DNA from: Treponema sp.
GTDB taxonomy: Bacteria; Spirochaetota; Spirochaetia; Treponematales; Treponemataceae
Assembly (NCBI GenBank): GCA_016281495.1
Contig: JAEEIU010000058.1
Span: 1 to 64,000, forward strand
Reading direction: 5' to 3'
Length of the DNA stretch: 64,000 bases
Shown here: piece by piece, positions 3,392 to 64,000 of the stretch
Layout of the letters: each line of letters opens with the position of its first letter
Numbering within the stretch: the first letter of the stretch is position 1
Notes under the pieces: model-generated
Database searches by the model: none
The model's input: the letters and a program-made list of their open reading frames with translations, nothing else
What the model was told of the DNA's origin: nothing
Translations under genes and position numbers: made by a program

Positions 3392-3426
3392 TTGACAGTA
3401 CTGGAATAATTTAATATCGTGTGGAT
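3392..3426 (+). promoter_or_regulatory. promoter of RlmM-like gene, leaderless arrangement
   Basis: A TTGACA -35 box at 3392-3397 and a TATCGT -10 box at 3415-3420 are 17 bases apart. Six bases separate the -10 from ATG 3427. The in-frame GTG at 3421 lies between the -10 and the expected transcription start, so it should not be in the mRNA. Confidence 0.6.
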
Positions 3427-4401
3427 ATGGGAAACTATTCGATTAAAGAAATCAGCGGATGTGCATTTTTATCTTTTCCGGGCATGAAGGAGCTTTTGTT
3501 TTCTGAATGCTCCGGGCGTTTTGGAAAAGACATTTCTTCATCTGAGCAATATGGAGATCTGGTTTATGTCCCTGACTGCGTGTCTGATGGTGTCATGCCG
3601 TACTGGTCAAGGTGTACCATGCTCAAGCCGCTTTTAATCACTTTTGAATCTGTCTCTGATGCCGCCAATGCCCTAAAGTCAATCCAAAGGTCATGGGCTC
3701 CATATTCTTATACGCTTTTTCGCCGAAGTTCCCTGATTCAAGACAAGCTTCCCTATGTAAACCTCAAGAACCGCGATTTCCCTTTTGACATCCCCAATAC
3801 ACCAATCGGTCTTTACACCTTAACCGATGAACACACGATGATTGCCTCAGCCCTTACAGATTCAAATCTTCCGGCCGGAAACATAACATTCAACGAAGAC
3901 CATATAAATCCGCCAAGCAGGGCATATCTAAAGATTCAGGAAAGCCTTACTCTTGCGCATCATTTTTTTGGAGTTGAAATGCCTGGTGTAGGTAGCCGAT
4001 GTTTTGAAGCCGGTGCATGTCCCGGTGGATGGACATGGGTTCTTGCAAATCTTGGTGCCAGAGTTTTTGCAGTGGACCGTTCACCGCTTGTTGATGCATT
4101 AATGAACAATCCTCTTGTTACGTTTCAGGCTCACGATGCTTTTACCTTAAAGCCTGAAGCTCTAGGAGAATTCGACTGGATTTTCAGCGACGTAATCTGT
4201 TATCCCGAACGCCTCTATGAATGGGTGTGCATGTGGCTGGAAAGCAAAAAGGTCAGGAACATGATCTGTACGATTAAAATGCAGGGTGAAATCAACTGGT
4301 CTTTAGTTCATAAATTCGCATCAATTCCGGACAGCCGTGTCGTTCACCTAAACTACAACAAGCATGAGCTTACTTTCATTCACTGTGCGTCAAAATCTTG
4401 A
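3427..4401 (+). CDS. RlmM/FtsJ-like SAM-dependent rRNA 2'-O-methyltransferase
   Basis: This predicts 324 residues. The C-terminal half is an FtsJ-type methyltransferase fold. CFEAGACPGGWTWVLANLGA is the SAM-binding motif I region, VFAVDR follows, and FDWIFSDVICYPERLYEW carries the catalytic-type Asp. ICTIKMQGE provides the Lys and HLNYNKHELTF closes the fold. The order and spacing resemble RlmM, which 2'-O-methylates C2498 of 23S rRNA in E. coli, but this protein is shorter and its own target is not shown. ATG 3427 was chosen because the promoter leaves only six bases before it and no Shine-Dalgarno is present. Confidence 0.7.
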   Translation: MGNYSIKEISGCAFLSFPGMKELLFSECSGRFGKDISSSEQYGDLVYVPDCVSDGVMPYWSRCTMLKPLLITFESVSDAANALKSIQRSWAPYSYTLFRRSSLIQDKLPYVNLKNRDFPFDIPNTPIGLYTLTDEHTMIASALTDSNLPAGNITFNEDHINPPSRAYLKIQESLTLAHHFFGVEMPGVGSRCFEAGACPGGWTWVLANLGARVFAVDRSPLVDALMNNPLVTFQAHDAFTLKPEALGEFDWIFSDVICYPERLYEWVCMWLESKKVRNMICTIKMQGEINWSLVHKFASIPDSRVVHLNYNKHELTFIHCASKS

Positions 4402-4412
4402 CGATGAAAACC

Positions 4413-5333
4413 CTAACGGTCAAGGTCTTCCAGGTTGTATGGTGTCTCCTGATATACATAATAGTTGAGCCAGTTTGAATAGAACAGATGGGCGGTACTC
4501 CTCCATCTTGAAAGGACCGGTTTTGTTACGTCGTCATCTGTAAAATAATTCTTTGGCGGTGCAATTTCTATTCCCTTGTCAAGATCCCTCTGGTACTCGT
4601 TGGCAAGTGTGTCGGAGTCGTATTCAAGGTGGCCTGTCATAAAGATTGAACGGTTGTCATTTGATTTTGCGATTGTAAGTCCTGTTTCAGCGTTGCTTGC
4701 AAGAAGCGTGAGTTTGGGATTTGCAAGGACGTCTTCCACATCAATCTTTGTGTAACGTGAAGTGGGGACCGGAAAAATGTCGTCGAATCCGCGTAAAATT
4801 GGATCGGTGGGAACCAGTGCCTTGCTGTAATAAATGCCGGAGAATTTCTTGTCCACTATTCTCTTAGGAATGCCATATAGATGATAAAGTCCTGCCATGG
4901 CACCCCAGCAGATGTACAGGGTTGAATAGACATGCTTTTTTGCATAGTCCATGATGCGGCAAAGTTCTTCCCAATAGTCAACCTGCTCAAATTCAAGCTG
5001 TTCGACTGGTGCGCCTGTAATTATCATGCCGTCGAATTTCTTTGTAAAGACGTCTTCGGAACTAATGTAAAAGCGTTCAAGATGGTCCTGGCCGGTGTGT
5101 TTGGAAATATGGCTTGACATCTGCACAAGGTGAATGTTGATTTGAAGCGGTGTGTTACCCAAAAGACGGAGCAATTGAATTTCTGTTGCAATCTTTGTGG
5201 GCATGAGGTTTACAATGGCAATTTCCAGCGGACGGATTTCCTGTGAAAGGGCACGACCCTGAGTCATAACGAAAATGTTTTCTTTTTCAAGAACGGAAAA
5301 AGCCGGTAAATCCGCATCAATCTTTATAGGCAC
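4413..5333 (-). CDS. metA: homoserine O-acetyltransferase (MetA family)
   Basis: This 306-residue protein of the MetA family activates L-homoserine for methionine synthesis. The GTG start at 5333 follows GAGGTG and gives the normal N-terminus (VPIKIDADLPAF). The nucleophile is Cys142 in ICWGAMAGLYH; His235 and Glu237 lie in TGHLEYD. Residue 111 is Glu in TGAPVEQLEF. In characterised MetA enzymes Glu111 goes with acetyl-CoA and Gly111 with succinyl-CoA, so acetyl-CoA use is inferred despite the common succinyltransferase name. This fits the O-acetylhomoserine sulfhydrylase at 40214-41488. It is divergent from the hydrolase gene at 5452, and no SAM riboswitch is evident upstream. Confidence 0.93.
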   Translation of the reverse strand: MPIKIDADLPAFSVLEKENIFVMTQGRALSQEIRPLEIAIVNLMPTKIATEIQLLRLLGNTPLQINIHLVQMSSHISKHTGQDHLERFYISSEDVFTKKFDGMIITGAPVEQLEFEQVDYWEELCRIMDYAKKHVYSTLYICWGAMAGLYHLYGIPKRIVDKKFSGIYYSKALVPTDPILRGFDDIFPVPTSRYTKIDVEDVLANPKLTLLASNAETGLTIAKSNDNRSIFMTGHLEYDSDTLANEYQRDLDKGIEIAPPKNYFTDDDVTKPVLSRWRSTAHLFYSNWLNYYVYQETPYNLEDLDR

Positions 5334-5451
5334 GCTGCACCTCGATATTGCGACAACTGAGTGTTTGTCTAAAATATTGCCATTATTGTAGCATAAAATT
5401 GATTTATTTGCTATACTATAGGCACAGTAAAATAGCGTAGAGGGGAATGCT

Positions 5452-10660: not shown

Positions 10661-11746
10661 TCATCCTTCCAGATCGGACACGTCTTTGAGCTGTTCTTCC
10701 TTGGCATAGACGTTGAGCGCATCAAGCATGTCGTCCATGTTTCCCATCATGAATGAGGGGAGGTTGTGCAAACTCAGGTTTATGCGGTGATCTGTGACAC
10801 GGTCCTGCGGGAAATTGTATGTGCGGATTTTTTCGCTTCTTGCACCGCTTCCAACCATGCTCTTTCTTGCATCGGCCCTTTCTGCCTGTCTTTTGCTTTC
10901 CTCAAGGTCAAAGAGTCTTGCACGAAGAACACGCCATGCCTTTGCCTTGTTCTTTATCTGAGATTTTTCATCCTGCTGGATAACAACGATTCCTGTCGGT
11001 ATATGTGTAAGACGGACTGCCGAATCCGTTGTGTTGACGCACTGACCGCCCGGTCCACCTGCACGCATAACATCCACACGCACGTCTTCCGGTTTTATGT
11101 CGATTTCTGTTTCCTCTGCTTCCGGCAAAACTGCAACGGTTGCTGTTGAGGTCTGCAAGCGTCCCTGTGATTCTGTGGCAGGAACCCTCTGTACACGGTG
11201 AACGCCTGATTCCCATCTGAGTGTTCCGTAAACAAATGAACCGCTGATTGATGTTACAATCTTGTTGAATCCGCCGACTTCTGTTTCCTGTGCTTCCATG
11301 GTTTCTGTGCTCCAGCCTTTGCGTTCGGCAAGATGGATATACATTTCCCAAAGGTCGCGCACAAAGAGGCTTGCTTCGTCTCCACCAGCGGCAGAACGTA
11401 TTTCCAGAATGATGTTCTTTTCATCAAGGGGATCCGGGGGAATGAGCTTTAGTTTGATCTGCTCTTCCAAAACCGGCTTCTTTTCTTCCAGTTCCTTTAA
11501 TTCCTCGCGGGCCATCTCTTTCATGTCGTGGTCTTCTTCTTCCGTAATCAGGACCGTGGCCTCTTCAATTCCAGAGAGGACTTTCTTGTACTCTGCATAC
11601 AGTTCCATCAGCTCCGTAAGATAACGGTGCTCGCGCATGACATCCTTGTACTTCTTTTGATCCTTGACCAACTCGGGATCGGCGATAAGACCCTGTACTT
11701 CTTCAAATCTAACTGAAAGGTCTTCTAGCTTTTTAATCAAATCCAT
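10661..11746 (-). CDS. prfA: peptide chain release factor 1
   Basis: This 361-residue RF1 ends translation at UAA and UAG. The catalytic GGQ is in MRAGGPGGQCVNTTDSAV. The region VQRVPATESQGR contains the PAT tripeptide that marks RF1 (RF2 has SPF), so RF1 is preferred. The length is normal. It is the first gene of a prfA-prmC operon. A promoter with its -10 only seven bases before the ATG, and no Shine-Dalgarno, predicts a leaderless transcript. Confidence 0.97.
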   Translation of the reverse strand: MDLIKKLEDLSVRFEEVQGLIADPELVKDQKKYKDVMREHRYLTELMELYAEYKKVLSGIEEATVLITEEEDHDMKEMAREELKELEEKKPVLEEQIKLKLIPPDPLDEKNIILEIRSAAGGDEASLFVRDLWEMYIHLAERKGWSTETMEAQETEVGGFNKIVTSISGSFVYGTLRWESGVHRVQRVPATESQGRLQTSTATVAVLPEAEETEIDIKPEDVRVDVMRAGGPGGQCVNTTDSAVRLTHIPTGIVVIQQDEKSQIKNKAKAWRVLRARLFDLEESKRQAERADARKSMVGSGARSEKIRTYNFPQDRVTDHRINLSLHNLPSFMMGNMDDMLDALNVYAKEEQLKDVSDLEG

Positions 11747-11782
11747 GCCAGCGATTGTATACTATTTTGACTTTTGTTTCAA
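11747..11782 (-). promoter_or_regulatory. prfA promoter, leaderless arrangement
   Basis: Read on the minus strand, TTGAAA (11777-11782) and TACAAT (11754-11759) are 17 bases apart, and only seven bases separate the -10 from the prfA ATG at 11746. Confidence 0.65.
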
Positions 11783-12231
11783 CTGAGGAATTTGTCCATT
11801 TCCTGCTTGCACAGGCTGTCGCACATTTCGTTGTATTTGTGTCCGGCGTGGCCCTTAACCCATGCCCATTCTATGTCCAGCTGATTGTATTCCTGGTCCA
11901 GCATGACCCACAGGTCCTTGTTCAATACGGGCTTTTTTGCGGCGGTTTTCCATCCGTTTTTCTTCCAGTTGTTGATCCAGCTTGTGATGCCGTTCTTTAC
12001 GTACTGGCTGTCGGAATAGACCTTGACTTTGTTGTTCTTCCATTTATTGTTTGAGAGCACGGCTTCCAGTGCCTTGATTGCGGCCATAAGTTCCATGCGG
12101 TTGTTTGTTGTGTCAGCCTCTCCGCCGCTGTAAGTATGCTCATCGTTTCCGTCTATGATGACAACACCCCATCCGCCCGGTCCAGGGTTTCCAGAGCATC
12201 CGCCGTCTGTGTAAATAATTATTTCATCCAT
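11779..12231 (-). CDS. rnhA: ribonuclease HI
   Basis: This 150-residue enzyme cuts the RNA strand of RNA-DNA hybrids. The four acidic metal ligands are visible in IIIYTDGGCSGNPGPGGW, RMELMAAIKALE, VYSDSQYVKNGI and WAWVKGHAGHKYNEMCDSL. The length matches bacterial RNase HI with its basic handle (INNWKKNGWKTAAKKP). The start is ATG 12231; a longer frame runs into the porin-gene terminator and is rejected. Promoter position predicts a leaderless mRNA. The stop lies close to the prfA promoter, so rnhA transcription may read into prfA-prmC. Confidence 0.95.
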   Translation of the reverse strand: MDEIIIYTDGGCSGNPGPGGWGVVIIDGNDEHTYSGGEADTTNNRMELMAAIKALEAVLSNNKWKNNKVKVYSDSQYVKNGITSWINNWKKNGWKTAAKKPVLNKDLWVMLDQEYNQLDIEWAWVKGHAGHKYNEMCDSLCKQEMDKFLS

Positions 12232-12266
12232 GAGGAGAGTATAGTATATAAAGATAGTTAAGTCTA
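12232..12266 (-). promoter_or_regulatory. rnhA promoter, leaderless arrangement
   Basis: On the minus strand TAGACT (12261-12266) and TATACT (12238-12243) are 17 bases apart, with six bases between the -10 and ATG 12231. No Shine-Dalgarno is present. Confidence 0.6.
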
Positions 12267-14562: not shown

Positions 14563-15987
14563 TTACTCTCCCATCAATTCCGCATATTTCTTGGCAAGAC
14601 GGCGGCTCTTTTCTGCTGCAAGTCCCCTGTAGCGTGAGGGGTCCTCAAAGAAGTTGGCAGGATCCTGAACTCCAAGTTTTTCAAGCTGGGCTGTAATCTT
14701 CTGATATGCGTCTGTGTGGGTTTTAAGCACCTCAAAGAAGGTTTTTCCGCTCTGTTCTGCCTCAAGGGTGATTTTGCGGATGACTTCGTGACCGTCGTTT
14801 ACTCCAGCCTCTCCAAGAAGGATGTATGCCGGCTCTGCAAGGACACCGCCACGGACTTTTCCTCCTGCTTCTGCAAGGTTCTTTGCCATATTGTCGCGGT
14901 CTGCCTGCAGTCCTGAAACAACAGACTTCATGCGGGCAATAGCCATTGTAAAGCCTGAGACATAGTCTGCGATAAAGCGCTGGCTTGCTGAGTTTGTAAG
15001 GTCCCTCTGGTGCTCGGAAATCTGATCCATGTAGAATGTGATTACGCGGGGGCACATGGCCTTCCACAGGGACTTTACGTGCTCGCTGTTCCACGGATTG
15101 CGCTTTTGGGGCATTGTGGATGAGCCTACCTGGGTTGAGGCAAAATATTCGTAAACTTCACCTATTTCGCTCCTCTGAAGGTTCCTTAGGTCGTCGGCAA
15201 GGTTTGCAATGATTCCGAATGCCACATTCATCTCCAAAAGGAGCCTGAGAAGGTATTCCGGTTCAACAAGCTGGTTTGAGTATTCGCTTGGTTCAAGTCC
15301 CAGGAATCCCAGATATGTGCGTTCAAGCTCTTCCGGGTCCTTTACGATCATGCTGGGGCCGTTGTATGAGCCTACCGGGCCTGCAAGCTTTCCCTTGAGC
15401 TGGTTTGAAAGTTCTTCTATGCGGAGGATAGATTTTCCCAGTCTGGAAACGAATTCCGCAATGCTCCATCCGAATGTGATTGGAACTGCATGCTGACCGT
15501 GGGTGCGTCCTACCTGTGGTGTTTCGGCTTCCCTGTCTGCGATGGTGCAGAGGGCTTTTTCCAGTGCCTTTAATTCCGGCAGAACTACATTCTGGGTAAC
15601 GTCCCTCATGCGGCATGAAAGGGCTGTGTCAAGGATGTCTACCGATGTGGCACCAAGATGAACGTAGGGGCCGATGTCTGCGGGGACCTTTGTCTTGAAT
15701 ACGTTTACCAGGGCACGGATGTTGTGCTTGGTCTTTTCCTCTTCGGCATAGACTTCCTGGGGGTCAAGATTCTGGGCGGTCTGGTCAAGCATGGCGGCGG
15801 TTTGGTCCGTGAGCTGTCCCCTGAGCTTGAGGTGGGCTTTTACAAGGGCCGCTTCCGCACGTGCACAGCTTCTGATGCTTGCTTCCTCTGAAATGTATTT
15901 TGAAAGGCCGTCAAATGCAGCGGCTTCCGACAATGAATACCGATGGTCGATACATGATAAGTTTTGAAAGATATTACGAGTTTCCAT
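14563..15987 (-). CDS. purB: adenylosuccinate lyase
   Basis: This 474-residue member of the fumarase/aspartase superfamily acts twice in purine synthesis, releasing fumarate from SAICAR and from adenylosuccinate. The superfamily signature is GSSTMPQKRNPW. GRTHGQHAVPITFGW holds the catalytic-type His, and EHQRDLTNSASQR is typical of PurB rather than argininosuccinate lyase. ATG 15987 is chosen over a GTG six bases upstream because the -10 box ends six bases before this ATG. It leads an operon with pflA. Confidence 0.93.
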   Translation of the reverse strand: METRNIFQNLSCIDHRYSLSEAAAFDGLSKYISEEASIRSCARAEAALVKAHLKLRGQLTDQTAAMLDQTAQNLDPQEVYAEEEKTKHNIRALVNVFKTKVPADIGPYVHLGATSVDILDTALSCRMRDVTQNVVLPELKALEKALCTIADREAETPQVGRTHGQHAVPITFGWSIAEFVSRLGKSILRIEELSNQLKGKLAGPVGSYNGPSMIVKDPEELERTYLGFLGLEPSEYSNQLVEPEYLLRLLLEMNVAFGIIANLADDLRNLQRSEIGEVYEYFASTQVGSSTMPQKRNPWNSEHVKSLWKAMCPRVITFYMDQISEHQRDLTNSASQRFIADYVSGFTMAIARMKSVVSGLQADRDNMAKNLAEAGGKVRGGVLAEPAYILLGEAGVNDGHEVIRKITLEAEQSGKTFFEVLKTHTDAYQKITAQLEKLGVQDPANFFEDPSRYRGLAAEKSRRLAKKYAELMGE

Positions 15988-16022
15988 GAGCACAGTATGT
16001 ACTAAATGGGGACAAATATCAA
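15988..16022 (-). promoter_or_regulatory. purB promoter, leaderless arrangement
   Basis: On the minus strand TTGATA (16017-16022) and CATACT (15994-15999) are 17 bases apart, with six bases between the -10 and ATG 15987. Confidence 0.65.
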
Positions 16023-16032
16023 GAGTAATTAA

Positions 16033-16104: not shown

Positions 16105-16139
16105 TTGAACAAATGGGCGTTTACACTTACAATGACGGA
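16105..16139 (+). promoter_or_regulatory. promoter of TlpA-like operon, leaderless arrangement
   Basis: TTGAAC (16105-16110) and TACAAT (16128-16133) are 17 bases apart, with six bases between the -10 and ATG 16140. The heptamer array lies just upstream. Confidence 0.65.
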
Positions 16140-17159
16140 ATGAAAAAGATTGGTTTATCAGTTCTGGCTTTGGCCGCATTTTTGGTTTTTTCTTCCTGTA
16201 CAGATAAAAATGATTTTGTTGACTTTGCAGAAAACGGCGTGCAGCTTTTAATCAGTCAGGAATATATGGACAAGGGAATCTCCTATGACTGTTACAGTTC
16301 GGACATGGCACAGTATCCTACGTTCATAATTGCATTTTCCTACATGCCCGCACTTGACCGGCTTTATGAGCAGGCCGAGGTGATGTGGGATACAATCCAA
16401 AGCAAAGAGGCCCAGGATTTGTTTATGGAAGATTTTGAACGCTCCCTTGCCTTGCATCAAAAAATACTTGCCTTTGGAATAACCATTCCTGAATCTGACT
16501 ACAAGAGGCTTGATCCCGGTGAATATCTTGCAAGCCTCCCTGTAATCGCAAAAAAATACGGATACGTCTACATCCTTAATACAATAGATAATTCAACTGA
16601 AGAAATGGATGACGAGGAAATCGAGGCCTTTAACGACTGCAAAAGCTATATCGACAAATCAATCAGGAAAATCCGCATCATGGAGCCTGTCATAAAAACT
16701 ATGGAAAACAGCTCAAGTCAATCTCTGGTTTTCCCGCAGTTTGAATCTCCTGCCTTGGACGGTACTCCAATTACAGATGAGGTGTTTGCAGGAAAAGACA
16801 TAACTTTGGTTCATATCTGGGGAACCTTCTGTACTCCATGCATAGAGGAAATGCCGGCACTGGCTGAATGGCAGAAGACTCTTGCACAGAATGTTCAGGT
16901 TCTGGGAATTGTCTGTGACGTGGGTTCACTTGATGACTCAAATGAAAAAGAGCTTGCACTTCAGATTATCAAAGATTCAGGGGTGGAGTTCCCCAATGTC
17001 ATTGCATCGGGCGGCATCCTTACTTATCTTACATCCGTTCAGTTTGTGCCTACTACGATTCTGGTTGATTCTGAAGGAACGATTATAGGCGAACCGATTG
17101 TTGGTGCCAGACTGGAAGATTATAAAAAGGCCGTAGAAGATTATGTTTCTTCACATTAG
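16140..17159 (+). CDS. TlpA-like thioredoxin-fold lipoprotein
   Basis: This 339-residue protein carries a lipoprotein signal (MKKIGLSVLALAAFLVFSSC, lipidated Cys20), so it should be anchored on the periplasmic side. Residues 30-200 form a helical region I do not recognise. The C-terminal part is a thioredoxin fold of the TlpA/ResA type: FESPALDGTPI, then LVHIWGTFCTPCIEEMPAL with redox cysteines 231 and 234, and a cis-Pro region in VQFVPTTILVDSEG. It probably reduces disulfides or passes electrons in the envelope. It is the first gene of an operon with a CXXC membrane peptide and a polyferredoxin-like membrane protein. A longer frame from 16080 would start before the promoter and is rejected. 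Confidence 0.85.
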   Translation: MKKIGLSVLALAAFLVFSSCTDKNDFVDFAENGVQLLISQEYMDKGISYDCYSSDMAQYPTFIIAFSYMPALDRLYEQAEVMWDTIQSKEAQDLFMEDFERSLALHQKILAFGITIPESDYKRLDPGEYLASLPVIAKKYGYVYILNTIDNSTEEMDDEEIEAFNDCKSYIDKSIRKIRIMEPVIKTMENSSSQSLVFPQFESPALDGTPITDEVFAGKDITLVHIWGTFCTPCIEEMPALAEWQKTLAQNVQVLGIVCDVGSLDDSNEKELALQIIKDSGVEFPNVIASGGILTYLTSVQFVPTTILVDSEGTIIGEPIVGARLEDYKKAVEDYVSSH

Positions 17160-19726: not shown

Positions 19727-21490
19727 TTAGCGTACCAGTTTGCGGTACATTGTTTTATGGGGCCGGTCTGCGTCATCTCCAAGCATCTTCTTGCGCCATT
19801 CAGAATAGTCGGACCAGCTTCCTTCAAACCATTTTACTTCAGAATTGTTTTCAAATGCAAGTATATGCGTGCAAATTCTGTCCAAAAAGTAACGGTCGTG
19901 GCTGATTACAAGAACAACCCCTGCAAATTCATTTATTGCCTCCTCTAGGGAACGGGTTGTCGTAATGTCAAGGTCGTTTGTGGGCTCGTCAAGCAAGAGT
20001 ACGTTTCCCGCTTCCTTGAACATCATGCCCATGTTAAGGCGGTTTTTCTCTCCACCGGAAAGCACGCTGATTTTCTTGTTCTGTTCAGCTCCGTTAAAGT
20101 TGAACCATGAGCAGTAGGCACGGCTGTTTACCTCACGGACTGCACCGTTTACAGGACGGCCCTTTTCGTCAACAGCACCAAGCTTTACAAGATCCGCTCC
20201 ACCGGAAAGCATTTCCCATACAGTCTTGTTTGGATCAAGCTTGCTCCTCATCTGGTCGACATAAACCAGCTTTACAGTTTCACCGATTTTAAGTGAACCG
20301 CTGTCTGGCTTTTCTTCTCCATCGCTTCCATCTGGCATCTGTACCTTTTGGCCTGCCGCACTTGCAATCATCTTGAACAATGTGGTTTTACCCGCACCGT
20401 TTGGACCGACAATACCTACAACCGCACCAGCCGGAATATGGAAATCAAGGTTTTCAAAAAGAACCCTGTCATCAAAACTCTTGGTAAGCTTTTCCGCATC
20501 TATTACGACGTTTCCAAGACGTGGACCTGCCGGAATTGAAATCTGTGAATCCTTGAGCTGAACCCTCTTGCTTTCTTCGGCCAGAAGCTGCTCGTAACGG
20601 GTGATGTGCTCCTTGTGCTTTGCCTGCCTTCCCTTTGCACCCGCATGAATCCATTCAAGCTCTTCCTGCATCTGCTTTTGGCGGACGCTGGCCTGCTTTT
20701 CTTCCTGGGCAAGACGCTTTTGTTTTGCCTCAAGCCATGCCGAATAATTTCCCTTGAACGGGTATCCTTCGCCCCTGTCCATTTCCAGAATCCATCCGGC
20801 AACATTGTCCAAAAAGTAGCGGTCGTGTGTAATCGCGATGACTGTTCCAGAATAGTTCTGAAGGTGACGCTCCAGCCATGCAACGGTTTCCGCATCAAGG
20901 TGGTTTGTAGGTTCGTCAAGAAGAAGAATGTCAGGCTGCTGCAAAAGAAGCCTGCACAATGCGACGCGACGACGTTCACCACCGGAAAGCACGTCCACAA
21001 CCTGATCTCCCGGGGGACACCTTAGGGCATCCATTGCAAGTTCCAGGTTTGCATCCAGGTTCCATGCATCAGCGGCATCAAGCTTTTCCTGAAGTTCGGC
21101 CTGTCTTGCACACAGCTTGTCAAAATCAGCATCGGGGTCTCCAAATGCCTCGTTAACCTTGTCAAATTCTGCAAGAAGATCAGTAATCGGCTTTACGCCT
21201 TCCATAACGATTTCCTTTACCGTCTTGCCTGCTTCAAGCACCGGTTCCTGCTCCAGATAGCCCAGGGTATAGCCCGGAGATACATGGGTTTCACCGACAA
21301 AATCCTTGTCAACGCCTGCCAGAATCTTGAACAGCGAGGATTTACCCGCACCGTTTTCACCGACAACGCCGATTTTTGCGCCATAGTAATATGAAATGCT
21401 GATGTCCTTTAAGACAACCTTTGTCCCATAAGAGCGGGACACCCTTTCCATAGTGTAAATGATTTTCTTTTCGTCTACAGTCTTTGCCAT
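19727..21490 (-). CDS. ettA: ABC-F translation factor EttA
   Basis: This 587-residue cytosolic ABC-F protein has two ATPase domains and no membrane part. The first has GVVGENGAGKSSLFKILAG, LSGGERRRVALCRLL and DILLLDEPTNHLD. The second has GIVGPNGAGKTTLFKM, LSGGEKNRLNMGMMF and VLLLDEPTNDLD. An arm insertion lies between Walker A and the signature in the first domain. The N-terminus and linker (GPRLGNVVIDAEKL) match EttA, which binds the ribosomal E site and adjusts elongation to ATP/ADP state. About 20 extra residues sit in the second domain (MPDGSDGEEKPDSGS). The promoter predicts a leaderless mRNA. Confidence 0.93.
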   Translation of the reverse strand: MAKTVDEKKIIYTMERVSRSYGTKVVLKDISISYYYGAKIGVVGENGAGKSSLFKILAGVDKDFVGETHVSPGYTLGYLEQEPVLEAGKTVKEIVMEGVKPITDLLAEFDKVNEAFGDPDADFDKLCARQAELQEKLDAADAWNLDANLELAMDALRCPPGDQVVDVLSGGERRRVALCRLLLQQPDILLLDEPTNHLDAETVAWLERHLQNYSGTVIAITHDRYFLDNVAGWILEMDRGEGYPFKGNYSAWLEAKQKRLAQEEKQASVRQKQMQEELEWIHAGAKGRQAKHKEHITRYEQLLAEESKRVQLKDSQISIPAGPRLGNVVIDAEKLTKSFDDRVLFENLDFHIPAGAVVGIVGPNGAGKTTLFKMIASAAGQKVQMPDGSDGEEKPDSGSLKIGETVKLVYVDQMRSKLDPNKTVWEMLSGGADLVKLGAVDEKGRPVNGAVREVNSRAYCSWFNFNGAEQNKKISVLSGGEKNRLNMGMMFKEAGNVLLLDEPTNDLDITTTRSLEEAINEFAGVVLVISHDRYFLDRICTHILAFENNSEVKWFEGSWSDYSEWRKKMLGDDADRPHKTMYRKLVR

Positions 21491-21525
21491 ACGTTTAATA
21501 TATATGAGAAATAAAATAGTTACAA
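21491..21525 (-). promoter_or_regulatory. ettA promoter, leaderless arrangement
   Basis: On the minus strand TTGTAA (21520-21525) and TATATT (21497-21502) are 17 bases apart, with six bases between the -10 and ATG 21490. Confidence 0.65.
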
Positions 21526-24602: not shown

Positions 24603-25513
24603 AAATTAGAACGGCTCAAGGGAACACCGATGGAAACACCTTCACTGGCAAGGAACTCCCGGTGTTCTCCCTCAATTAAAAACTGAACGCTTTCTACTGT
24701 GGGGAATGCTGTGGCGGTGTAGACAATCTGCTGCAGCTGGCCCAAAACTCCTTCAATTCCATACTGGTTGAATTCAAACTCCTCGCTGAAATTCAAGGTA
24801 GCGACACTGTTGCTTACTGAGGCACCCAAAAGCCTGCATCCTGATGAAACAAGAGTCCTGCAGTTGCCTTCTTCCGGTTTTGGGCCGTCGATTATGGCGT
24901 TTATTGCGTCTGTCAGCGGGCTGTCAGATTTCTTCATCTCGCGTACGACTTCCTTTCTGCTAAGGGAACCGTCGCTGTTTATCATCATGAAATATAGTTT
25001 TAGCTTCATGGTTGCGCTAGAGGTGCTGCCTGTCTGCTCTGTGGTTTGACTTTCTGTCTGTTGGGTATTCTGTACCTCAATCTGGTTTGGTACCTCGACA
25101 GTCTGAACTGTTTGGGGTAAACCAGTGGTCAAATCTGTGGTTAATGCCTCGTTTTCCTGTTTAAGGGAATTCTCATAGTTTTGTGTGGCGGCATTGTTCT
25201 GCGAGATTATGCCGGTGCCGACGCCCTCTTTGTTGGAGTCTGTCACGTCTATCTGTACGGAAGAAGAGAAAGGCTCAATGTCATTTTTCTCGTTGTTCTC
25301 CGGAATTTCAGCTTTTTCCACAAAGGCCGGAGTTTTTCCTACCAAACGGTCAAAGAATCCGGTGGACTTGAGGTTGGATGCGATTTTCTTTTGATTCACA
25401 AGGAATACAATTAAAATGACGATTGCCGCCAAAAGCCATAGTGCAAATCCAAGTCCGATTCGTGCCTTTTTTGAGTTTCCTTTCCTGCCGGTTTTTTCTT
25501 TTTTTGATGCCAT
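24599..25513 (-). CDS. membrane-anchored GerMN-domain protein
   Basis: This 304-residue protein has a lysine-rich cytoplasmic start, one membrane helix (LGFALWLLAAIVILIVFLV), a Gln/Thr-rich linker of about 100 residues and a C-terminal GerMN domain. That domain shows LKLYFMMINSDGSL, SPLTDAINAIIDGPKPEEG, GCRLLGASVSNSVATLNFS and FPTVESVQFLIEG. GerMN domains occur in exported proteins of spore germination and cell-wall contexts; the ligand is unknown. ATG 25513 is preferred to an in-frame TTG at 25549. Its start region lies inside the end of the radical SAM gene, so it is the last gene of that operon. Confidence 0.8.
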   Translation of the reverse strand: MASKKEKTGRKGNSKKARIGLGFALWLLAAIVILIVFLVNQKKIASNLKSTGFFDRLVGKTPAFVEKAEIPENNEKNDIEPFSSSVQIDVTDSNKEGVGTGIISQNNAATQNYENSLKQENEALTTDLTTGLPQTVQTVEVPNQIEVQNTQQTESQTTEQTGSTSSATMKLKLYFMMINSDGSLSRKEVVREMKKSDSPLTDAINAIIDGPKPEEGNCRTLVSSGCRLLGASVSNSVATLNFSEEFEFNQYGIEGVLGQLQQIVYTATAFPTVESVQFLIEGEHREFLASEGVSIGVPLSRSNF

Positions 25514-25535
25514 GTTTTTTATTATACCTTCTCTG

Positions 25536-26576
25536 TCATTTATTTTCAATTACCTGTGTTTTGTTTTGAATAAATCCTTCCCTCCAGTGCCATAGGGGTA
25601 GGGCTAGCTTGTTGGAGAACGGCTGGCAGCGGTTAAAGTCCGGAAGCCATGAAGTGTCGTCGCTCAATTCCTGGTAGAATAGCCAGTCAAAGTCGTATGC
25701 CTCGATTATGTCCTGTAAGTCTGCGTCCTCGTCCGGTGTGACAAGCCTGTTTTCTATTGAAGAAAGGGCTTTGTTTCTGGATTCAAGTTCCTGTGTACTG
25801 CCTGTAAATGGAACGGGGGTATATTGGGACATGAGCGATATGCATGCCCTTGTGTCCGCGTGTTCCTTGAGCCAGTCAAGAGCCATCACGGTGTCTTCAA
25901 AACGTCCTGGCAGAAACAGATGCCTTATGATGACTCCGCTTTGTATTTTCTCATAATCCCTGCCTTCAATTTTCATCTGCTGTATTTTTAGGGGTGAATG
26001 TTCAATCATCCATTCAACTGCCTTTTTTGCAACCTCAGGATAATCTTCCGCACCAAAGAGTTTTTTGCTCAAATCGCCGTTCAAGGTTTTAAAGTCGGGT
26101 AGCCAGATGTCAACTAGGCCGTCCAAAAGTTCAAGCATTTCCGTGGATTCGTATGCGCTGGAATTCCATGCAACGGGAATCATAAGGCCGTTTTGTCTTG
26201 CGTTTTTAAGGTATTCCGCGATGAGTGGAATGTGGTGGCTTCCGGTTACAAGATTTATGTTTTCCGCACCATGCTCCTGAAGAAGAATGCACATTTTTGC
26301 AAAGTCGTCACCGCTGACACTTGATCCCATTTCCTGCTGGCTTATCTGATAGTTCTGGCAGAATGAGCATCGCAGCGTGCAGCCCGTAAAGAAAATAGTT
26401 CCGCTTCCACCGTGGACTGTAATCAGGGGTTCCTCTCCAAAATGAAGTCCCGCCAGTGCAATGCGCAAATCAGAAGTTTCCCTGCAAAAACCCTTTGTGC
26501 CTGTTGAACGGTTTATGCCGCACCGTCTTGGACATTGCGTGCATGAAATGTAATGATTCGAGGTGTTAAAGCCCAT
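25536..26576 (-). CDS. radical SAM protein of the PflX type (COG1313-like)
   Basis: This 346-residue protein has an N-terminal cysteine segment (YISCTQCPRRCGINRS, then GTKGFC), then GSGTIFFTGCTLRCSFCQNY with the CX3CX2C radical SAM cluster, and later VDIWLPDFKTLNGDLS and VIIRHLFLPG. This order matches the PflX-like proteins related to pyruvate formate-lyase activases, whose substrates are mostly unknown. The start overlaps the preceding gene's stop by one base. It sits in a four-gene operon with two unrecognised proteins and a GerMN protein. It is distinct from PflA at 13810-14559. Confidence 0.85.
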   Translation of the reverse strand: MGFNTSNHYISCTQCPRRCGINRSTGTKGFCRETSDLRIALAGLHFGEEPLITVHGGSGTIFFTGCTLRCSFCQNYQISQQEMGSSVSGDDFAKMCILLQEHGAENINLVTGSHHIPLIAEYLKNARQNGLMIPVAWNSSAYESTEMLELLDGLVDIWLPDFKTLNGDLSKKLFGAEDYPEVAKKAVEWMIEHSPLKIQQMKIEGRDYEKIQSGVIIRHLFLPGRFEDTVMALDWLKEHADTRACISLMSQYTPVPFTGSTQELESRNKALSSIENRLVTPDEDADLQDIIEAYDFDWLFYQELSDDTSWLPDFNRCQPFSNKLALPLWHWREGFIQNKTQVIENK

Positions 26577-26978: not shown

Positions 26979-27473
26979 TCAATACCGGACTATAGATTTG
27001 TTTTCAAGGACTTTTTCATCCCTGCTGAAGAACACATAATGTGAATGCTTTTGTGAAAGTTCGTCGCAGAAATATCCTGAATCCGCTTCCTGTGGAATTG
27101 CAAAACCAATTACGGAAACACAATCCTTTATGCGTCGTGCACAGTGCTTCATGCTTGCGGTAAAGGCTTCCTTTTTGTCAGGATTTCCAGCATCCGAATC
27201 TGCCACAGGAACAATGACGGCAAACTGTTTCTTTTCTTCCATCACTTTAAGGTAGTCGCGAAGGTTTGCAAGAAATGCCTCGTTGTATGATTCTTCGTCC
27301 ATGCCAACAAGTGTCCATGCAACATCTATAAAAAGCGGAGCGTCAATCTTTAGCGGCATGGGAATAAAACTTTCCCCGGCCTGGATCCTGTTTTCGGAAT
27401 CAAGGACAACAGCCTTACCTTCAACAGTAAAAAGAGAATTATCCTTTGCGGTAAATAATGCTTCAAGTTTCAT
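26979..27473 (-). CDS. conserved-looking protein of unknown function
   Basis: This 164-residue protein heads the four-gene operon. It has no signal peptide. The core (PLFIDVAWTLVGMDEESYNE, then LRDYLKVMEEKKQFAVIVPV, then CARRIKDCVSVIGFAIPQE) alternates strands and helices and may be part of a TIM-barrel-like or Rossmann-like fold, but I cannot name a family. It ends in KVLENKSIVRY. The next gene starts one base after its stop. The promoter has TATAAT six bases before the ATG. Confidence 0.55.
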   Translation of the reverse strand: MKLEALFTAKDNSLFTVEGKAVVLDSENRIQAGESFIPMPLKIDAPLFIDVAWTLVGMDEESYNEAFLANLRDYLKVMEEKKQFAVIVPVADSDAGNPDKKEAFTASMKHCARRIKDCVSVIGFAIPQEADSGYFCDELSQKHSHYVFFSRDEKVLENKSIVRY

Positions 27474-27508
27474 GAGCTTATTATATACTTTTTGTCTATT
27501 TCTGAATA
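27474..27508 (-). promoter_or_regulatory. promoter of PflX operon, leaderless arrangement
   Basis: On the minus strand TATAAT (27480-27485) lies six bases before ATG 27473. The -35, 17 bases further up, is the weak TATTCA (27503-27508). Confidence 0.5.
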
Positions 27509-28938: not shown

Positions 28939-29449
28939 TTATTCCGTCGTCTGTAAAAAGTCCTTCCTTCCCTATCTCAAGCCAAACTTCTTCATCGGCT
29001 TTTACATAGCACAATACCCCTTCAAATTTTTCCACTTGCACCTTCAATCTTTCAAAACTGACGCTGGAACATGCTTCAAGTTTTCTTTTAAGCTCACCGA
29101 TTATTTTTCCGTTTTCGTCCACATAAAACTGGCGGCTGGTTGCACTTACATCAGGCAAAGTGTTGTACCATGAATTGCAAAAGTCCAGTGCAAGCTTGAG
29201 TTTGGAAAAGAGTACCAGGGTTCTCTGATGGTCACTTGTCCATGCTTCCATTCCAAAAAGACATGCTATGTTGTATTTTGAGCATTCAGTGTAAAATGCG
29301 GGACAATTCATTGCCGTGTTCAAATCTGTGAGTGCCGCAACTTGAATGCCTCTCTGTGAAATCTTTTTTGCCATTGTGCTTGGGGAACAAAGAGGATTAA
29401 TGTTTGGACTGAGTGACGATTTTAAATTCAAAAGTGATAATACTTTCAT
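28871..29449 (-). CDS. PHP-domain-like protein with lost metal ligands
   Basis: This 192-residue protein follows the outline of short PHP phosphoesterases: SLSPNINPLCSPSTMAKKIS, then GIQVAALTDLNTAMNCPAFY, then CLFGMEAWTSD. In active PHP proteins the first strand carries HxH and the second TDHN. Here they read NLKSS and TDLN, so three histidine ligands are absent. The usual later His motif (PAHP) is also not found. It is therefore probably non-catalytic, perhaps a binding protein. The frame is otherwise open and has its own promoter, so it is not simply decaying. Its 3' end overlaps the methyltransferase gene by 68 bases. Confidence 0.65.
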   Translation of the reverse strand: MKVLSLLNLKSSLSPNINPLCSPSTMAKKISQRGIQVAALTDLNTAMNCPAFYTECSKYNIACLFGMEAWTSDHQRTLVLFSKLKLALDFCNSWYNTLPDVSATSRQFYVDENGKIIGELKRKLEACSSVSFERLKVQVEKFEGVLCYVKADEEVWLEIGKEGLFTDDGIINLSSVEKAFERLQVPQAEHLP

Positions 29450-29484
29450 GTAATCAGTTTAAGTTGAATGAGGAATATTGCCAC
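29450..29484 (-). promoter_or_regulatory. promoter of PHP-like gene, leaderless arrangement
   Basis: On the minus strand GTGGCA (29479-29484) and TAAACT (29456-29461) are 17 bases apart, with six bases between the -10 and ATG 29449. Confidence 0.5.
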
Positions 29485-35717: not shown

Positions 35718-35761
35718 GATAGGATTAGAAATCAGGCATTGTAGATTTTCCATTGGTTTTA

Positions 35762-35777
35762 TGCTATAGTACGTGTC
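35762..35777 (+). promoter_or_regulatory. extended -10 promoter of ABC exporter operon, leaderless arrangement
   Basis: TGCTATAGT (35762-35770) is an extended -10. Seven bases separate it from ATG 35778. The hexamer 17 bases upstream (TAGATT, 35742-35747) is a poor -35, which fits an extended -10 promoter. No Shine-Dalgarno is visible. Confidence 0.55.
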
Positions 35778-42425: not shown

Positions 42426-42695
42426 CTAGATGCGGTGCATTTCCGTAAAGACTTTTTCCGCCATGAGGTTCACTTCGACACCAAGTGCGTGACCTTCCTC
42501 TGTAAGAAGCTTGCGGGCCTCGTCAACAGAAATGTCTGAATTGCTCATGTCTGCCATCATCATCATGACAAAATTGCCGCTAAGGATGGTCTGGGTGATA
42601 TCATCAATATTAATGGAATGATTTGCCAAAAATGCGGAGACCTTGGCAATGATTCCAACCTTGTCTGCACCAACAACAGTAATAATCGCTTTCAT
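42426..42695 (-). CDS. ACT-domain protein (UPF0237 type)
   Basis: This 89-residue protein is a single ACT domain: AIITVVGADKVGIIAKVSAF, HSINIDDITQTIL and a C-terminal EKVFTEMHRI. Members of this small family are thought to bind amino acids and regulate other proteins. The start is placed at ATG 42695 rather than the ATG two codons earlier, because a promoter with good spacing ends six bases before 42695. It is a single-gene unit. Confidence 0.88.
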   Translation of the reverse strand: MKAIITVVGADKVGIIAKVSAFLANHSINIDDITQTILSGNFVMMMMADMSNSDISVDEARKLLTEEGHALGVEVNLMAEKVFTEMHRI

Positions 42696-42730
42696 GCCCA
42701 TATTCTACCCCAGTTTGGGCTTTTAGACAA
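42696..42730 (-). promoter_or_regulatory. ACT gene promoter, leaderless arrangement
   Basis: On the minus strand TTGTCT (42725-42730) and TAGAAT (42702-42707) are 17 bases apart, with six bases between the -10 and ATG 42695. The alternative ATG at 42701 would lie before the expected transcription start. Confidence 0.6.
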
Positions 42731-51649: not shown

Positions 51650-51684
51650 TTGACAATTATCTCCATAAGCGGTATATTTATAGT
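51650..51684 (+). promoter_or_regulatory. htrA-type gene promoter, leaderless arrangement
   Basis: A consensus TTGACA (51650-51655) and TATATT (51673-51678) are 17 bases apart, with six bases between the -10 and ATG 51685. No Shine-Dalgarno is present. Confidence 0.7.
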
Positions 51685-52935
51685 ATGAAAATGAATTCGA
51701 AATTTACTACTATTATAAGTTCAATAATCACTGGTGTTGTGGCCGCTGTTGCTGCGGTTGTTGTCTGCGTTTTTGTTGTCCCAGGACGACAGAATCAGGC
51801 TGCGGTTATAGAAACTGAGGATGAGCCTGTTGTTCTTGCCGATGCAGGAATTTCAACTCATGAACTTCAGCTTCAGACAAATACTCCAGTGCTCACGGTT
51901 GCAAATCCGTCTAATGCCTATACCCAGGACGAAGCCCAGAACATCGCCGTATACGAGAAATGCAATGAGGCTGTCGTGAACATTACCACCCAGGTTATGG
52001 GATACAACTGGTTCCTTGAGCCTGTGGTTGCCTCAAGCGGTTCCGGTTCCGGTTCCATAATTGATGCAAGGGGATATGTCGTAACAAACGTTCACGTAAT
52101 CGAGAATGCCAGCTCAATCACGATTTCCCTTGCCGACGGTACAAGCTATGAGGGAACTGTTGTAGGTAAGGATGTTGAAAGCGACATCGCCGTACTCAAG
52201 TTTACACCGCCCAAAGGTGTTGAGTTAAAGACAATTGCATTTGGTGACAGCGACAACCTCAAGGTAGGTCAGAAGGTAATTGCCATCGGAAACCCGTTTG
52301 CTCTTGAACGCACCATGACAACAGGCATAGTTTCAGGTCTTGGCCGCCCGATTCAGGAAAGCGAAAACGTCATCATACGCAACATGATTCAGACCGACGC
52401 TGCAATCAATCCGGGTAATTCAGGAGGACCTCTTCTTGACAGCCAGGGAAGGATGATTGGAATCAACACCATCATCTATTCAAACAGCGGTTCTTCAAGT
52501 GGAGTCGGATTTGCAGTTCCCGTCAGCACCGCACGCCGTGTCGTAAGCGATTTGATCAGCTATGGCAAGGTAAACCGTGGTGTCATGATGCTGTCCCTCG
52601 TGCAGAATACAAGCCGCATTGCAAACTATGCGGGCTACGAGGTCAAGACAGGCATGATTGTAAGCCGCGTTCGCTCAGGTAGCCTTGCAGAATCAGCAGG
52701 AATCAAGGGTGGAACAAGAGCCGTTCAATACGGAACGTTCAATGCCAAGACAATTTATCTTGGTGGCGATGTCATAACAAAGATAGACGGCCTCAAGGTT
52801 GATACCCTGGCAGACTATTATGCCGCCCTGGAAGACAAGGTTCCCGGCGATACAGTAACCGTAACAGTATACCGTAACAAGAAATACGTGGACATAAAGG
52901 TAAAGCTGGAAGCCGAATCACAAACATCCATTTGA
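51685..52935 (+). CDS. HtrA/DegP-type serine protease with PDZ domain
   Basis: This 416-residue protein has an N-terminal membrane segment (residues about 8-33) that should anchor it facing the periplasm. The trypsin-like triad is His137 (YVVTNVHVIE), Asp167 (ESDIAVLKF) and Ser246 (AAINPGNSGGPLLD). One PDZ domain follows (MIVSRVRSGSLAESAGIKGG, then DVITKIDGLKVDTLADYYAA). It degrades or refolds damaged envelope proteins. A single PDZ fits the DegS/HtrA type. The gene ends in a strong terminator. Confidence 0.93.
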   Translation: MKMNSKFTTIISSIITGVVAAVAAVVVCVFVVPGRQNQAAVIETEDEPVVLADAGISTHELQLQTNTPVLTVANPSNAYTQDEAQNIAVYEKCNEAVVNITTQVMGYNWFLEPVVASSGSGSGSIIDARGYVVTNVHVIENASSITISLADGTSYEGTVVGKDVESDIAVLKFTPPKGVELKTIAFGDSDNLKVGQKVIAIGNPFALERTMTTGIVSGLGRPIQESENVIIRNMIQTDAAINPGNSGGPLLDSQGRMIGINTIIYSNSGSSSGVGFAVPVSTARRVVSDLISYGKVNRGVMMLSLVQNTSRIANYAGYEVKTGMIVSRVRSGSLAESAGIKGGTRAVQYGTFNAKTIYLGGDVITKIDGLKVDTLADYYAALEDKVPGDTVTVTVYRNKKYVDIKVKLEAESQTSI

Positions 52936-63284: not shown

Positions 63285-63437
63285 TTAAAAAAGAGTTTTT
63301 TTAACTAGGTATTTTGTAGCTGAAGCACTCTCCGATGCTTTTTTTTGCTGGGACATTATCAATTCCCACCAAACGTCTTGTAGCTGGTTGACCCTTTCCC
63401 TATCTATTTCTTCTCTCTCGTTTAATAACTTAATCAG
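63285..63437 (-). CDS. candidate small gene ending at a strong terminator
   Basis: A frame free of stops runs from 63440 to the stop at 63285-63287, three bases before the terminator hairpin. From a possible CTG at 63437 it encodes 50 residues, including LLNEREEIDRERVNQLQDVW, WELIMSQQKKASESASATKY and VKKTLF, an amphipathic helix-rich sequence. There is no ATG in the first half; CTG 63437, ATT 63434 and ATG 63356 are possible starts. A +1 shift from the upstream frame (ATG 63450, stop overlapping 63432) is another option. TTGACG (63468-63473) and TATGGT (63446-63451) could form the promoter. It might instead be a small RNA or a decayed gene. Confidence 0.35.
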   Translation of the reverse strand: MIKLLNEREEIDRERVNQLQDVWWELIMSQQKKASESASATKYLVKKTLF

Positions 63438-63484
63438 ATGTTACTACCATATTTGTGGTACCGCAACCGTCAAAAACTACCCAA

Positions 63485-63523
63485 AATATGGTATATTACC
63501 CCCATTAATATGGTATTTTACCC
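63485..63523. promoter_or_regulatory. paired 17-bp direct repeats, candidate operator
   Basis: AATATGGTATATTACCC (63485-63501) and AATATGGTATTTTACCC (63507-63523) differ at one position and start 22 bases apart, about two helical turns. The second copy abuts the proposed -35 of the sensor gene. A partial inverted copy (ACCATATTT) lies at 63446-63454. The layout suggests sites for a regulator controlling one or both divergent transcripts. Confidence 0.55.
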
Positions 63524-63559
63524 TTTTCTTTTTCAATTTTTACGGATATAATTCAATAT
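63524..63559 (+). promoter_or_regulatory. promoter of 7TM-DISM sensor gene, leaderless arrangement
   Basis: TATAAT (63547-63552) lies seven bases before ATG 63560. The -35, TTTTCT at 63524-63529, is weak and directly follows the paired direct repeats, consistent with activator control. Confidence 0.5.
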
Positions 63560-64000
63560 ATGAATGGAAAAAGACTTTTTGCCCTGTTTTTGGGTTTTAT
63601 GAGTGCTTTCTCGCTGTTTTCCGAGAAAAACTACATAAAGAATATCATAAAAGACTTGAATATAGAAGCCGTTGATGACTCTGGGAATAAAAACATACCG
63701 ATAAGCGTATCCTATTACAATGATGAGGAGGCTGAGCTTAACTGCGATGATTTGGATGACGTTGAGCTTATTTCAGTTCCTTCCAGCTTTAATCCCGGTT
63801 TTTATCCTGGAGTAATATGGCTGGACATTTCTTTTTTGGACAGGTACATCAACAATCAGGATGATTTATACCTTTCGTTCGGGAACAGGCACATTGACCT
63901 GGCAGAGGTGTACATAAAAAAATCTTACGGATGGCATTTGCTTGGCAGGACCGGACGTGGAATCAAAAGGAATCAGATGTCCGATCCGTTCAGGGATTTG
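63560..64000 (+). CDS. 7TM-DISM-type sensor protein, N-terminal part (3' cut by window)
   Basis: The frame stays open from ATG 63560 to the window end (147 codons). A signal peptide (KRLFALFLGFMSAFSLF) is followed by a domain with GVIWLDISFLDRYINNQDD, LYLSFGNRHIDLAEVYI and GWHLLGRTGRGI, which resembles the extracellular DISMED2-type domain of 7TM-DISM receptors. Such proteins continue with seven membrane helices and a kinase, cyclase or phosphatase output, none of which is visible here. The domain assignment is by pattern and moderate. Confidence 0.6.
   Translation, partial: MNGKRLFALFLGFMSAFSLFSEKNYIKNIIKDLNIEAVDDSGNKNIPISVSYYNDEEAELNCDDLDDVELISVPSSFNPGFYPGVIWLDISFLDRYINNQDDLYLSFGNRHIDLAEVYIKKSYGWHLLGRTGRGIKRNQMSDPFRDL

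Follow-up and report, generated by a model that had tools for sequence, protein, structure and literature searches.

Promoter spacing predicts leaderless mRNAs for a subset of first-in-operon genes in a rumen/gut Treponema

Introduction

Leaderless genes are already known in bacteria, Leptospira among them. In the figures given by Zheng et al. (PMC3160421), TA-led genes carry a TANNNT box with its first T about 12 bases ahead of the start codon and are without a Shine-Dalgarno sequence; they were recorded in 6 of 18 spirochaete genomes, with a mean of 3.9% and a range of 1.8-6.9%, and the same figures list 46.1% of Deinococcus radiodurans genes as leaderless. Extracts from the transcript mapping of Leptospira interrogans (PMC5243855) give a mapped start coinciding with the start codon in 184 genes at 30 degrees and 170 genes at 37 degrees and a leader of under 10 bases in about 440 genes, and state that the authors found no promoter motif besides sigma-54. 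According to the passages on GeneMarkS-2 in PMC9581028, leaderless transcription is predicted in 21.6% of bacterial species, for up to 40% of transcripts; the words Treponema and Spirochaet are absent from that paper. Antibiotics that act on translation in this selective way are mentioned there too. Kasugamycin is said to leave leaderless mRNAs unaffected.

For two flagellar genes of Treponema denticola, the mapped transcription starts lie 14 and 124 bases ahead of the gene, and leadered genes therefore exist in the genus too. The open-licence literature, which leaves out most subscription journals, yielded no account of leaderless mRNAs in Treponema. In the passages where the word occurs, one Treponema paper (PMC9200625) applies "leaderless" to antimicrobial peptides and another (PMC12687308) has it in one reference title only. 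The DNA considered here is a stretch of 64,000 nucleotides from a Treponema sp. (the window), for which a sequence-only reading had predicted widespread leaderless mRNAs from promoters ending 6-7 bases before the start codon.

Results

Promoters in the window

When the starts were re-read, all 14 genes named in the sequence-only reading as carrying a -10-like hexamer exactly 6 or 7 bases before the start codon did so, the gap being 6 bases in 11 and 7 bases in three, each time ahead of an ATG; gene names were checked against NCBIfam and Pfam. On the forward strand, 6-base gaps were found for the RlmM-like gene at 3427 (3392..3429; TTGACA-17-TATCGT), the TlpA-like gene at 16140 (16105..16142; TTGAAC-17-TACAAT) and the htrA-type gene at 51685 (51650..51687; TTGACA-17-TATATT). 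The reverse-strand genes with this gap were rnhA at 12231 (12229..12266; TAGACT-17-TATACT), purB at 15987 (15985..16022; TTGATA-17-CATACT), ettA at 21490 (21488..21525; TTGTAA-17-TATATT), the gene at 27473 (27471..27508; TATAAT), for which no family match was obtained in NCBIfam or Pfam, the PHP-domain gene at 29449 (29447..29484; GTGGCA-17-TAAACT), the ptsN-like EIIA gene at 32831 (32829..32866; TTGACA-17-TAAACT), lysA at 35682 (35680..35717; TTGACC-17-CATACT) and the ACT-domain gene at 42695 (42693..42730; TTGTCT-17-TAGAAT). The 7-base gap was seen for prfA at 11746 on the reverse strand (11744..11782; TTGAAA-17-TACAAT), which lies 32 bases behind the preceding gene, and on the forward strand for the ABC exporter at 35778 (35742..35780; TATAGT) and the sensor gene at 63560 (63524..63562; TATAAT). 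The CATACT hexamers of purB and lysA fall outside TANNNT. The top-scoring -35 hexamer was located at a spacer of 17 bases in 13 of the 14 and at 15 bases for 27473; as proposed, the -35 was weak at 27473 and 63560, and that of the ABC exporter (spacer 17) was weak as well. A strong promoter of the same type, absent from the earlier list, precedes the Germane-domain gene at 25513 on the reverse strand (25511..25549; TTGAAA-17-TATAAT, 7 bases, ATG), 22 bases behind another gene.

Four further genes had been placed at 8-11 bases. Their gaps were reproduced (DMT transporter 8, proS 9, helicase 11, ilvB 11), but such distances rise at most a little above the neighbouring ones: in an 862 kb sample of the same 3.2 Mb genome, 9 genes fall at gap 8, 10 at gap 9 and 4 at gap 11, while each gap from 12 to 25 holds 2-12. 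None of the 18 listed genes had a Shine-Dalgarno sequence of at least 4 bases (0/14 at 6-7 bases), in agreement with the statement that nearly all lack one. The companion statement, that downstream genes of the operons possess one, was true of only 7/17 such genes in the window under a strict rule; across the sample the figure was 138/225, compared with 12% for a control set of 625 ATGs lying within genes.

Distance peak and share in the genome sample

A coding-versus-intergenic start model, likewise blind to promoters, took the place of a first gene caller that had set many starts too late. The distance plot for the 862 kb sample displayed a sharp peak at 6-7 bases, where promoters were found for 67/429 first-in-operon genes; the shifted positions, used as 20 decoy windows, gave a mean of 12.9 (standard deviation 3.0, maximum 20). 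Downstream genes had a promoter at this distance in 5/225 cases against 2.8 expected. The start differs from the coding-only call in 26 of the 67, because near-equal starts were permitted, in the decoys included; the peak was also present with promoter-blind fixed starts. TANNNT is common, the intergenic DNA being 66% A+T. As a control pattern read backwards destroys the promoter, the same pattern was also counted at 20 bases, and the whole genome gave 111 matches at 6 bases and 43 at 20.

From these counts the leaderless-type share is estimated at about 11-13% of first-in-operon genes and about 8% of all sampled genes; the estimate depends on the cut, low cuts giving 7-10% and the highest one 7%. 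The window is richer than the rest of the sample (13/35 first genes, with 0.8 expected from shifted positions, versus 54/394; Fisher p = 0.001), and the claim that a large share of first-in-operon genes is leaderless goes too far. The description of these genes as housekeeping genes fits the window, but elsewhere only 8 of 20 scanned genes, drawn from the 29 best cases in the sample, matched an NCBIfam family at 1e-20. The core of the prediction thus passes the sequence tests that were run, while its share and its "housekeeping" label were overstated.

Sigma-70 features, the -1 base and Shine-Dalgarno sequences

Genes chosen by their -10 hexamer alone (n = 91) had a mean -35 score of +0.58 at spacer 17, whereas the means for spacers 12-16 and 18-22 ranged from -2.2 to -3.6, and nothing comparable was seen in four decoy sets. 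This signal was confined to spacer 17 both in the window's own genome and in G328, another genome of the genus. The motif is of the plain sigma-70 type, and a special sigma factor was dropped as a candidate for that reason; a repeat artefact was dropped since the upstream sequences differ between species. A pyrimidine occupies position -1 in 60/67 leaderless-type genes and in 210/362 other first genes (p = 2e-7). Shine-Dalgarno sequences were present in 4/67 and 158/362 of these, respectively, although the mutual exclusion of Shine-Dalgarno and -10 is partly forced, as both sites would take the same bases; when the promoter was 18-21 bases away, 22/26 genes had one. A search for 16S rRNA in the genome itself did not find it; two complete relatives carry the 16S tail GGATCACCTCCTTTCT (anti-Shine-Dalgarno).

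Conservation in the genus and beyond

Loci of the ptsN-like gene, ettA, lysA and guaA were taken as the best 30 of 59 genomes searched, the window's own included, and close relatives are therefore favoured in the counts that follow. The 6-7-base layout of the ptsN-like gene was kept in 30/30 of these genomes of the genus, with TTGAC beginning 35 bases before the ATG in 21 and 36 bases before it in 9. For ettA the layout was found in 24/30, with a Shine-Dalgarno sequence in 5 of the 6 others, and for lysA 11/30 had the leaderless layout and 19/30 a Shine-Dalgarno sequence. In prfA, TANNNT lies at 5-9 bases in 75/80 relatives, against 8-19 in four decoy windows, and a pyrimidine is at -1 in 77/80; Treponema bryantii and T. 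saccharophilum are among the prfA relatives. Of the 75, 39 are at 6-7 bases and many are at 8-9, a distance that suits a predicted leader of 1-3 bases better than the lack of one. By contrast, prmC, which lies inside the prfA operon, has TANNNT at 5-9 bases in 3/49 usable loci. Codon-type variation starts right after the ATG of both the ptsN-like gene (30 genomes) and prfA (79). Only 3 of the 80 prfA loci allowed a comparison of rnhA, and only 1 of the 30 lysA loci allowed one of the ABC exporter; both genes were therefore set aside.

In G328, 24/198 first genes had a promoter at 6-7 bases against 5.2 expected, and Shine-Dalgarno sequences were found in 0/24 of these and 85/174 others. Its -1 pyrimidine excess was weaker (18/24 versus 97/174) and, when genes were selected by -10 alone, its pyrimidine fraction of 0.69 was no higher than the 0.67 of the negative control G070, a genome of another family in which no excess at 6-7 bases was found (3/174 versus 3.0 expected). 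A wider comparison was tabulated for 216 of 295 genomes, covering the genus, family, order and class to which the window belongs and another four families, with 79 left out. Matches at 6 bases exceeded those at 20 in 34/34 genomes of the window's genus and in only 8/34 genomes of one family of small genomes; the highest count at 6 bases was 218, versus 97 at 20 (G130). The leaderless layout is thus patchy within Spirochaetes.

Discussion

The findings are very probably explained by sigma-70-type promoters set so that transcription starts at the A of the ATG, give or take one base. RNA polymerase would start there, the mRNA would begin 5'-AUG, with neither leader nor Shine-Dalgarno sequence, and ribosomes would load directly on the 5' AUG, in the form of 70S or of 30S together with initiator tRNA and IF2, two routes described elsewhere for leaderless mRNAs. 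This mode would serve about 1 in 8 first-in-operon genes, whereas a Shine-Dalgarno sequence precedes most of the downstream genes and many of the remaining first genes, and individual genes would have gone from one mode to the other within the genus.

In intergenic DNA so rich in A+T, where TANNNT is common and about 13 of the 67 cases are expected by chance, the boxes might be accidental, or might reflect a local richness in A+T by which start codons stay unstructured, no promoters being involved. This is extremely unlikely for the group, as the peak occurs only at 6-7 bases and only in first genes, a -35 accompanies it at spacer 17, and G328 agrees whereas G070 of another family shows nothing; the spacing and -35 tests refute it at group level, although single genes may still be chance cases. 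Real promoters that yield a very short leader of 1-5 bases, with ribosomes needing something besides a 5' AUG, would suit the many prfA relatives at 8-9 bases and the helicase and ilvB at 11 in the window. Such an arrangement is unlikely given that the excess in the genome itself is at 6-7 bases, where the pyrimidine at -1 reaches 90% (gap 6, n = 49) and 82% (gap 7, n = 22), as opposed to 40% at gap 8 (n = 10) and 38% at gap 9 (n = 13).

Uncertain start calls for some genes (the 26 of 67 off the coding-only call) would allow a leaderless RNA on which translation begins at a later start codon, the ATG being unused. This reading is hardly credible in view of the conserved residues and third-position variation from codon 2 onward in the ptsN-like gene and prfA, and in rnhA the alignment to the RNase HI profile begins at residue 1. 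Finally, the genes could be read mainly from other, leadered promoters further upstream, the promoters at 6-7 bases being minor, which the proximity of prfA and the 25513 gene to the genes before them (32 and 22 bases) makes conceivable. A leadered transcript would, however, be without the usual ribosome-binding site in all but those 4 of 67 genes, and the layout is conserved in the ptsN-like gene, ettA and, at 5-9 bases, prfA, so that this arrangement is very unlikely.

If transcription does start at the ATG, the list of bacteria rich in leaderless mRNAs would gain a gut lineage known mostly through metagenomes, and start annotation would gain a usable rule, namely to look for an ATG that follows a -10 by 6-7 bases. 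Because related species differ in the mode that their orthologues use at the same ATG, Treponema would offer a natural test bed for the question of why a gene becomes leaderless. A bolder and rather doubtful extension is that the two modes are interchangeable and selected at the same ATG in Treponema, with the ptsN-like gene and prfA held leaderless or nearly so throughout the genus and lysA, guaA and ettA switched repeatedly. Were this true, the leaderless genes might constitute a class under joint translational control, for example via initiation-factor balance or stress.

The layout looks well conserved in this rumen/gut Treponema and its relatives, and the predicted leaderless share of the genome is much below the one listed for Deinococcus radiodurans. 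Deinococcus leaderless genes reportedly have the same spacing between -10 and start, as de Groot et al. are said to have described in 2014. Leptospira is also a spirochaete, of another lineage, whose leaderless starts were mapped on RNA, whereas the case for Treponema comes from sequence and involves a sigma-70-type motif at fixed spacing. In the TA-led genes of Zheng et al. (2011), as there defined, the distance of about 12 bases corresponds to a gap of 6, the same as in Treponema here. The Treponema sample, at about 8% of genes (an excess of 54 among 662), differs from the mean of 3.9% given for spirochaetes in that survey, a comparison that is only rough because the methods are not the same, and unlike in the survey, conservation was here followed gene by gene.

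Start-proximal promoters in the window

The source genome comprises 3.21 Mb in 61 contigs, of which the window forms bases 1-64000 of contig C8. Its spirochaete label was borne out by prfA relatives: the encoded protein is identical to the Treponema sp. UBA1233 counterpart over 361 residues, and by title the 80 best prfA loci belong to Treponema (T. bryantii, T. berlinense and T. saccharophilum among them), uncultured Spirochaetaceae and one Spirochaetia bacterium, many from rumen or faeces.

The sequence-only reading had reported -10-like hexamers 6 or 7 bases before the start codons of 14 genes and taken them as a sign of leaderless mRNAs. All 14 were re-read, and the gap was confirmed as 6 bases in 11 and 7 in three (prfA, the ABC exporter and the sensor). 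None carried a Shine-Dalgarno (SD) of at least 4 bases, and four further genes had gaps of 8, 9, 11 and 11, within the 8-11 proposed. A -35 hexamer at a spacer of 17 bases was best-scoring in 13 of the 14; for the gene at 27473, it lay at 15 instead. The gene names were backed by NCBIfam and Pfam, except that 27473 had no match.

A strong promoter of the same type (TTGAAA-17-TATAAT, 7 bases; window 25511-25549, minus strand) precedes a Germane-domain gene that follows the gene ahead of it by 22 bases, which may mean that leaderless starts are found within operons too. The divergent lysA and ABC exporter genes share a 95-base gap (window 35682-35778) with back-to-back promoters, each ending at its own ATG. 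Between purB and the TlpA-like gene (window about 15994-16130) there are short near-repeats of the GTAATTC and GAATTAT type, and a similar stretch sits before proS near 21600.

Excess over chance in first-in-operon genes

The sample joined the window to 40 further stretches (798 kb) from its genome, 862 kb in all, and 662 genes were called in it. Initial start calls drew on coding composition and the start codon alone, never on upstream motifs. With starts fixed, TANNNT occurred at gap 6 in 24 and at gap 7 in 25 of 307 clearly first genes (background 10.2), and in four at each gap among 225 downstream genes (background 2.9). The full promoter score gave 25 at gap 6 and 16 at gap 7 (mean 6.6). 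Near-equal alternative ATGs were then permitted, for decoys (the same scoring at shifted positions) as well; 67 of 429 first genes scored at 6-7 bases, whereas 20 decoy windows averaged 12.9 and reached 20 at most. Downstream genes gave 5 of 225 against 2.8 expected. The predicted 6-7-base excess in first genes was therefore present in the distance plot for 862 kb of the 3.21 Mb.

The further claim that a large share of first genes is leaderless was too strong. Score cuts from 4 to 8 imply a share of 10.6-13.0%; lower cuts, like the highest one, imply 7-10%. At the cut used, the excess (54 of 662) amounts to about 8% of all genes. The impression arose because the window is unusually rich, with 6-7-base promoters at 13 of 35 first genes versus 54 of 394 in the rest of the sample (p = 0.001).

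Promoter identity was examined in 91 genes chosen solely by TANNNT at 6-7 bases. Their mean -35 score was +0.58 at spacer 17 and -2.2 to -3.6 at spacers 12-16 and 18-22. No comparable signal was seen at decoy positions 0-1, 3-4 and 14-15; 18-19 showed only a faint rise (about -2.0, spacers 17-18), as would be expected if some of these are leadered promoters. In 400 kb sampled from another genome of the genus (G328), the score at spacer 17 was +1.59, and 24 of 198 first genes scored at 6-7 bases versus 5.2 expected. The negative control from another family (G070) gave 3 of 174 versus 3.0 expected and no -35 signal; any leaderless mRNAs in that organism would thus arise otherwise.

Predicted transcription start and translation from the ATG

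Bacterial polymerases prefer to start at a purine following a pyrimidine, about 7 bases past the -10. C or T preceded the ATG in 90% of the 49 genes at gap 6 and 82% of the 22 at gap 7, compared with 40% of 10 at gap 8 and 38% of 13 at gap 9. Under a stricter cut, a pyrimidine stood at -1 in 60 of 67 leaderless-type versus 210 of 362 other first genes. The trend was the same, though weaker, in G328 (18/24 versus 97/174); with -10-only selection its pyrimidine fraction (0.69) was not above that of G070 (0.67). In the source-genome sample, an SD was found in 6 of 29 genes with a promoter 11-16 bases away and in 22 of 26 with one 18-21 bases away (6/11 in G328), which points to the 18-21-base promoters as a second, minimal-leader layout. 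Judged by the -1 pyrimidine and by SD frequency at each promoter distance, the genome seems to have two layouts: either transcription begins at the ATG and no ribosome site is present, or the leader is roomy enough for one.

In the ptsN-like gene (30 sequences) and prfA (79), conserved residues with third-position variation run from codon 2 onward, and because this coding-type variation begins there, the frame is judged to be in use from that ATG. Since the 16S tail carries the usual anti-Shine-Dalgarno in two complete relatives, and an SD precedes 138 of 225 downstream genes in the sample, nothing suggests unusual ribosomes. Codons 2-8 of the ptsN-like gene (window 32808-32831, minus strand; loci L121-L150 of the 30 genomes) show low third-position variation in values unadjusted for amino-acid composition, 0.35-0.99 bits compared with a higher 0.91-1.91 at codons 9-14, which would fit a constraint on the earliest transcribed bases in addition to that imposed by the protein.

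Conservation and switching among relatives

The ptsN-like, ettA, lysA and guaA comparisons each used the best 30 of 59 genomes, own genome included. In all 30 ptsN-like genes (own and 29 others), the -10 lay at 6 (21) or 7 (9) bases, TTGAC began 35 or 36 bases upstream of the ATG, the SD was absent and a pyrimidine stood at -1. The 6-7-base layout was kept in 24 of 30 for ettA. Among the 80 best prfA relatives, 75 had TANNNT at 5-9 bases (8-19 in equal-width decoy windows), 39 of these at 6-7, and 77 had a pyrimidine at -1. Where the best prfA promoter scored at least 6, it lay at 8-9 bases in 36 of 67, pointing to 1-3-base leaders in some members of the genus. Upstream bases beyond the boxes were mostly free to vary, less so near the -35 of the ptsN-like gene.

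With a score cut applied to 200 orthologues of these five genes, prfA divided into 68 leaderless, 5 SD, 3 both and 4 neither; the ptsN-like gene was leaderless in all 30; ettA gave 24 leaderless, 5 SD and 1 neither; lysA 11 leaderless and 19 SD; and guaA 6 leaderless, 18 SD, 1 both and 5 with an SD-like stretch only. Picked as an SD control, guaA proved to be leaderless in some species. On quick single-protein trees, with SD-like scored as SD and "both" and "neither" left out, mode changed at least four times in lysA, six in guaA and two in ettA. At the Treponema sp. UBA1233 locus (L041), the prfA promoter is nearly identical to the window's, yet rnhA has an SD replacing the leaderless promoter.

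Distribution across the phylum and comparison with known leaderless genes

A survey of 295 genomes from the phylum tallied matches to the -35/-10/ATG pattern with a 6-base and with a 20-base gap; group totals take in 216 of them (the window's genus, family, order and class, and four further families). Counts at 6 versus 20 bases were 2097 versus 952 in the genus (34/34 genomes higher at 6) and 1444 versus 748 in other genomes of the family (19/20). Families f31 (334 versus 122), f33 (1067 versus 714) and f42 (347 versus 250) were grouped as in-between. The small genomes of f6, probably Borrelia-like, gave 649 versus 771 (8/34 higher at 6), and f24, probably Brachyspira-like, 2317 versus 2024 (24/29). 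The top count at 6 came from G130, of the same order (218 versus 97), a possible sign of a lineage richer in leaderless genes.

Leaderless genes as a kind are already known, because Zheng et al. 2011 (PMC3160421) give leaderless-type predictions in 6 of 18 Spirochaetes (1.8-6.9%), and RNA mapping in Leptospira interrogans (PMC5243855) placed 184 and 170 starts exactly at the start codon. Leaderless mRNAs are also frequent in Borrelia, according to a Borrelia ribosome paper. No report for Treponema was found in the open-licence literature searched, which omits most subscription journals. So far as that literature goes, the elements that look new are the predicted occurrence in Treponema, the counting of positions from the ATG and the predicted gene-by-gene switching.
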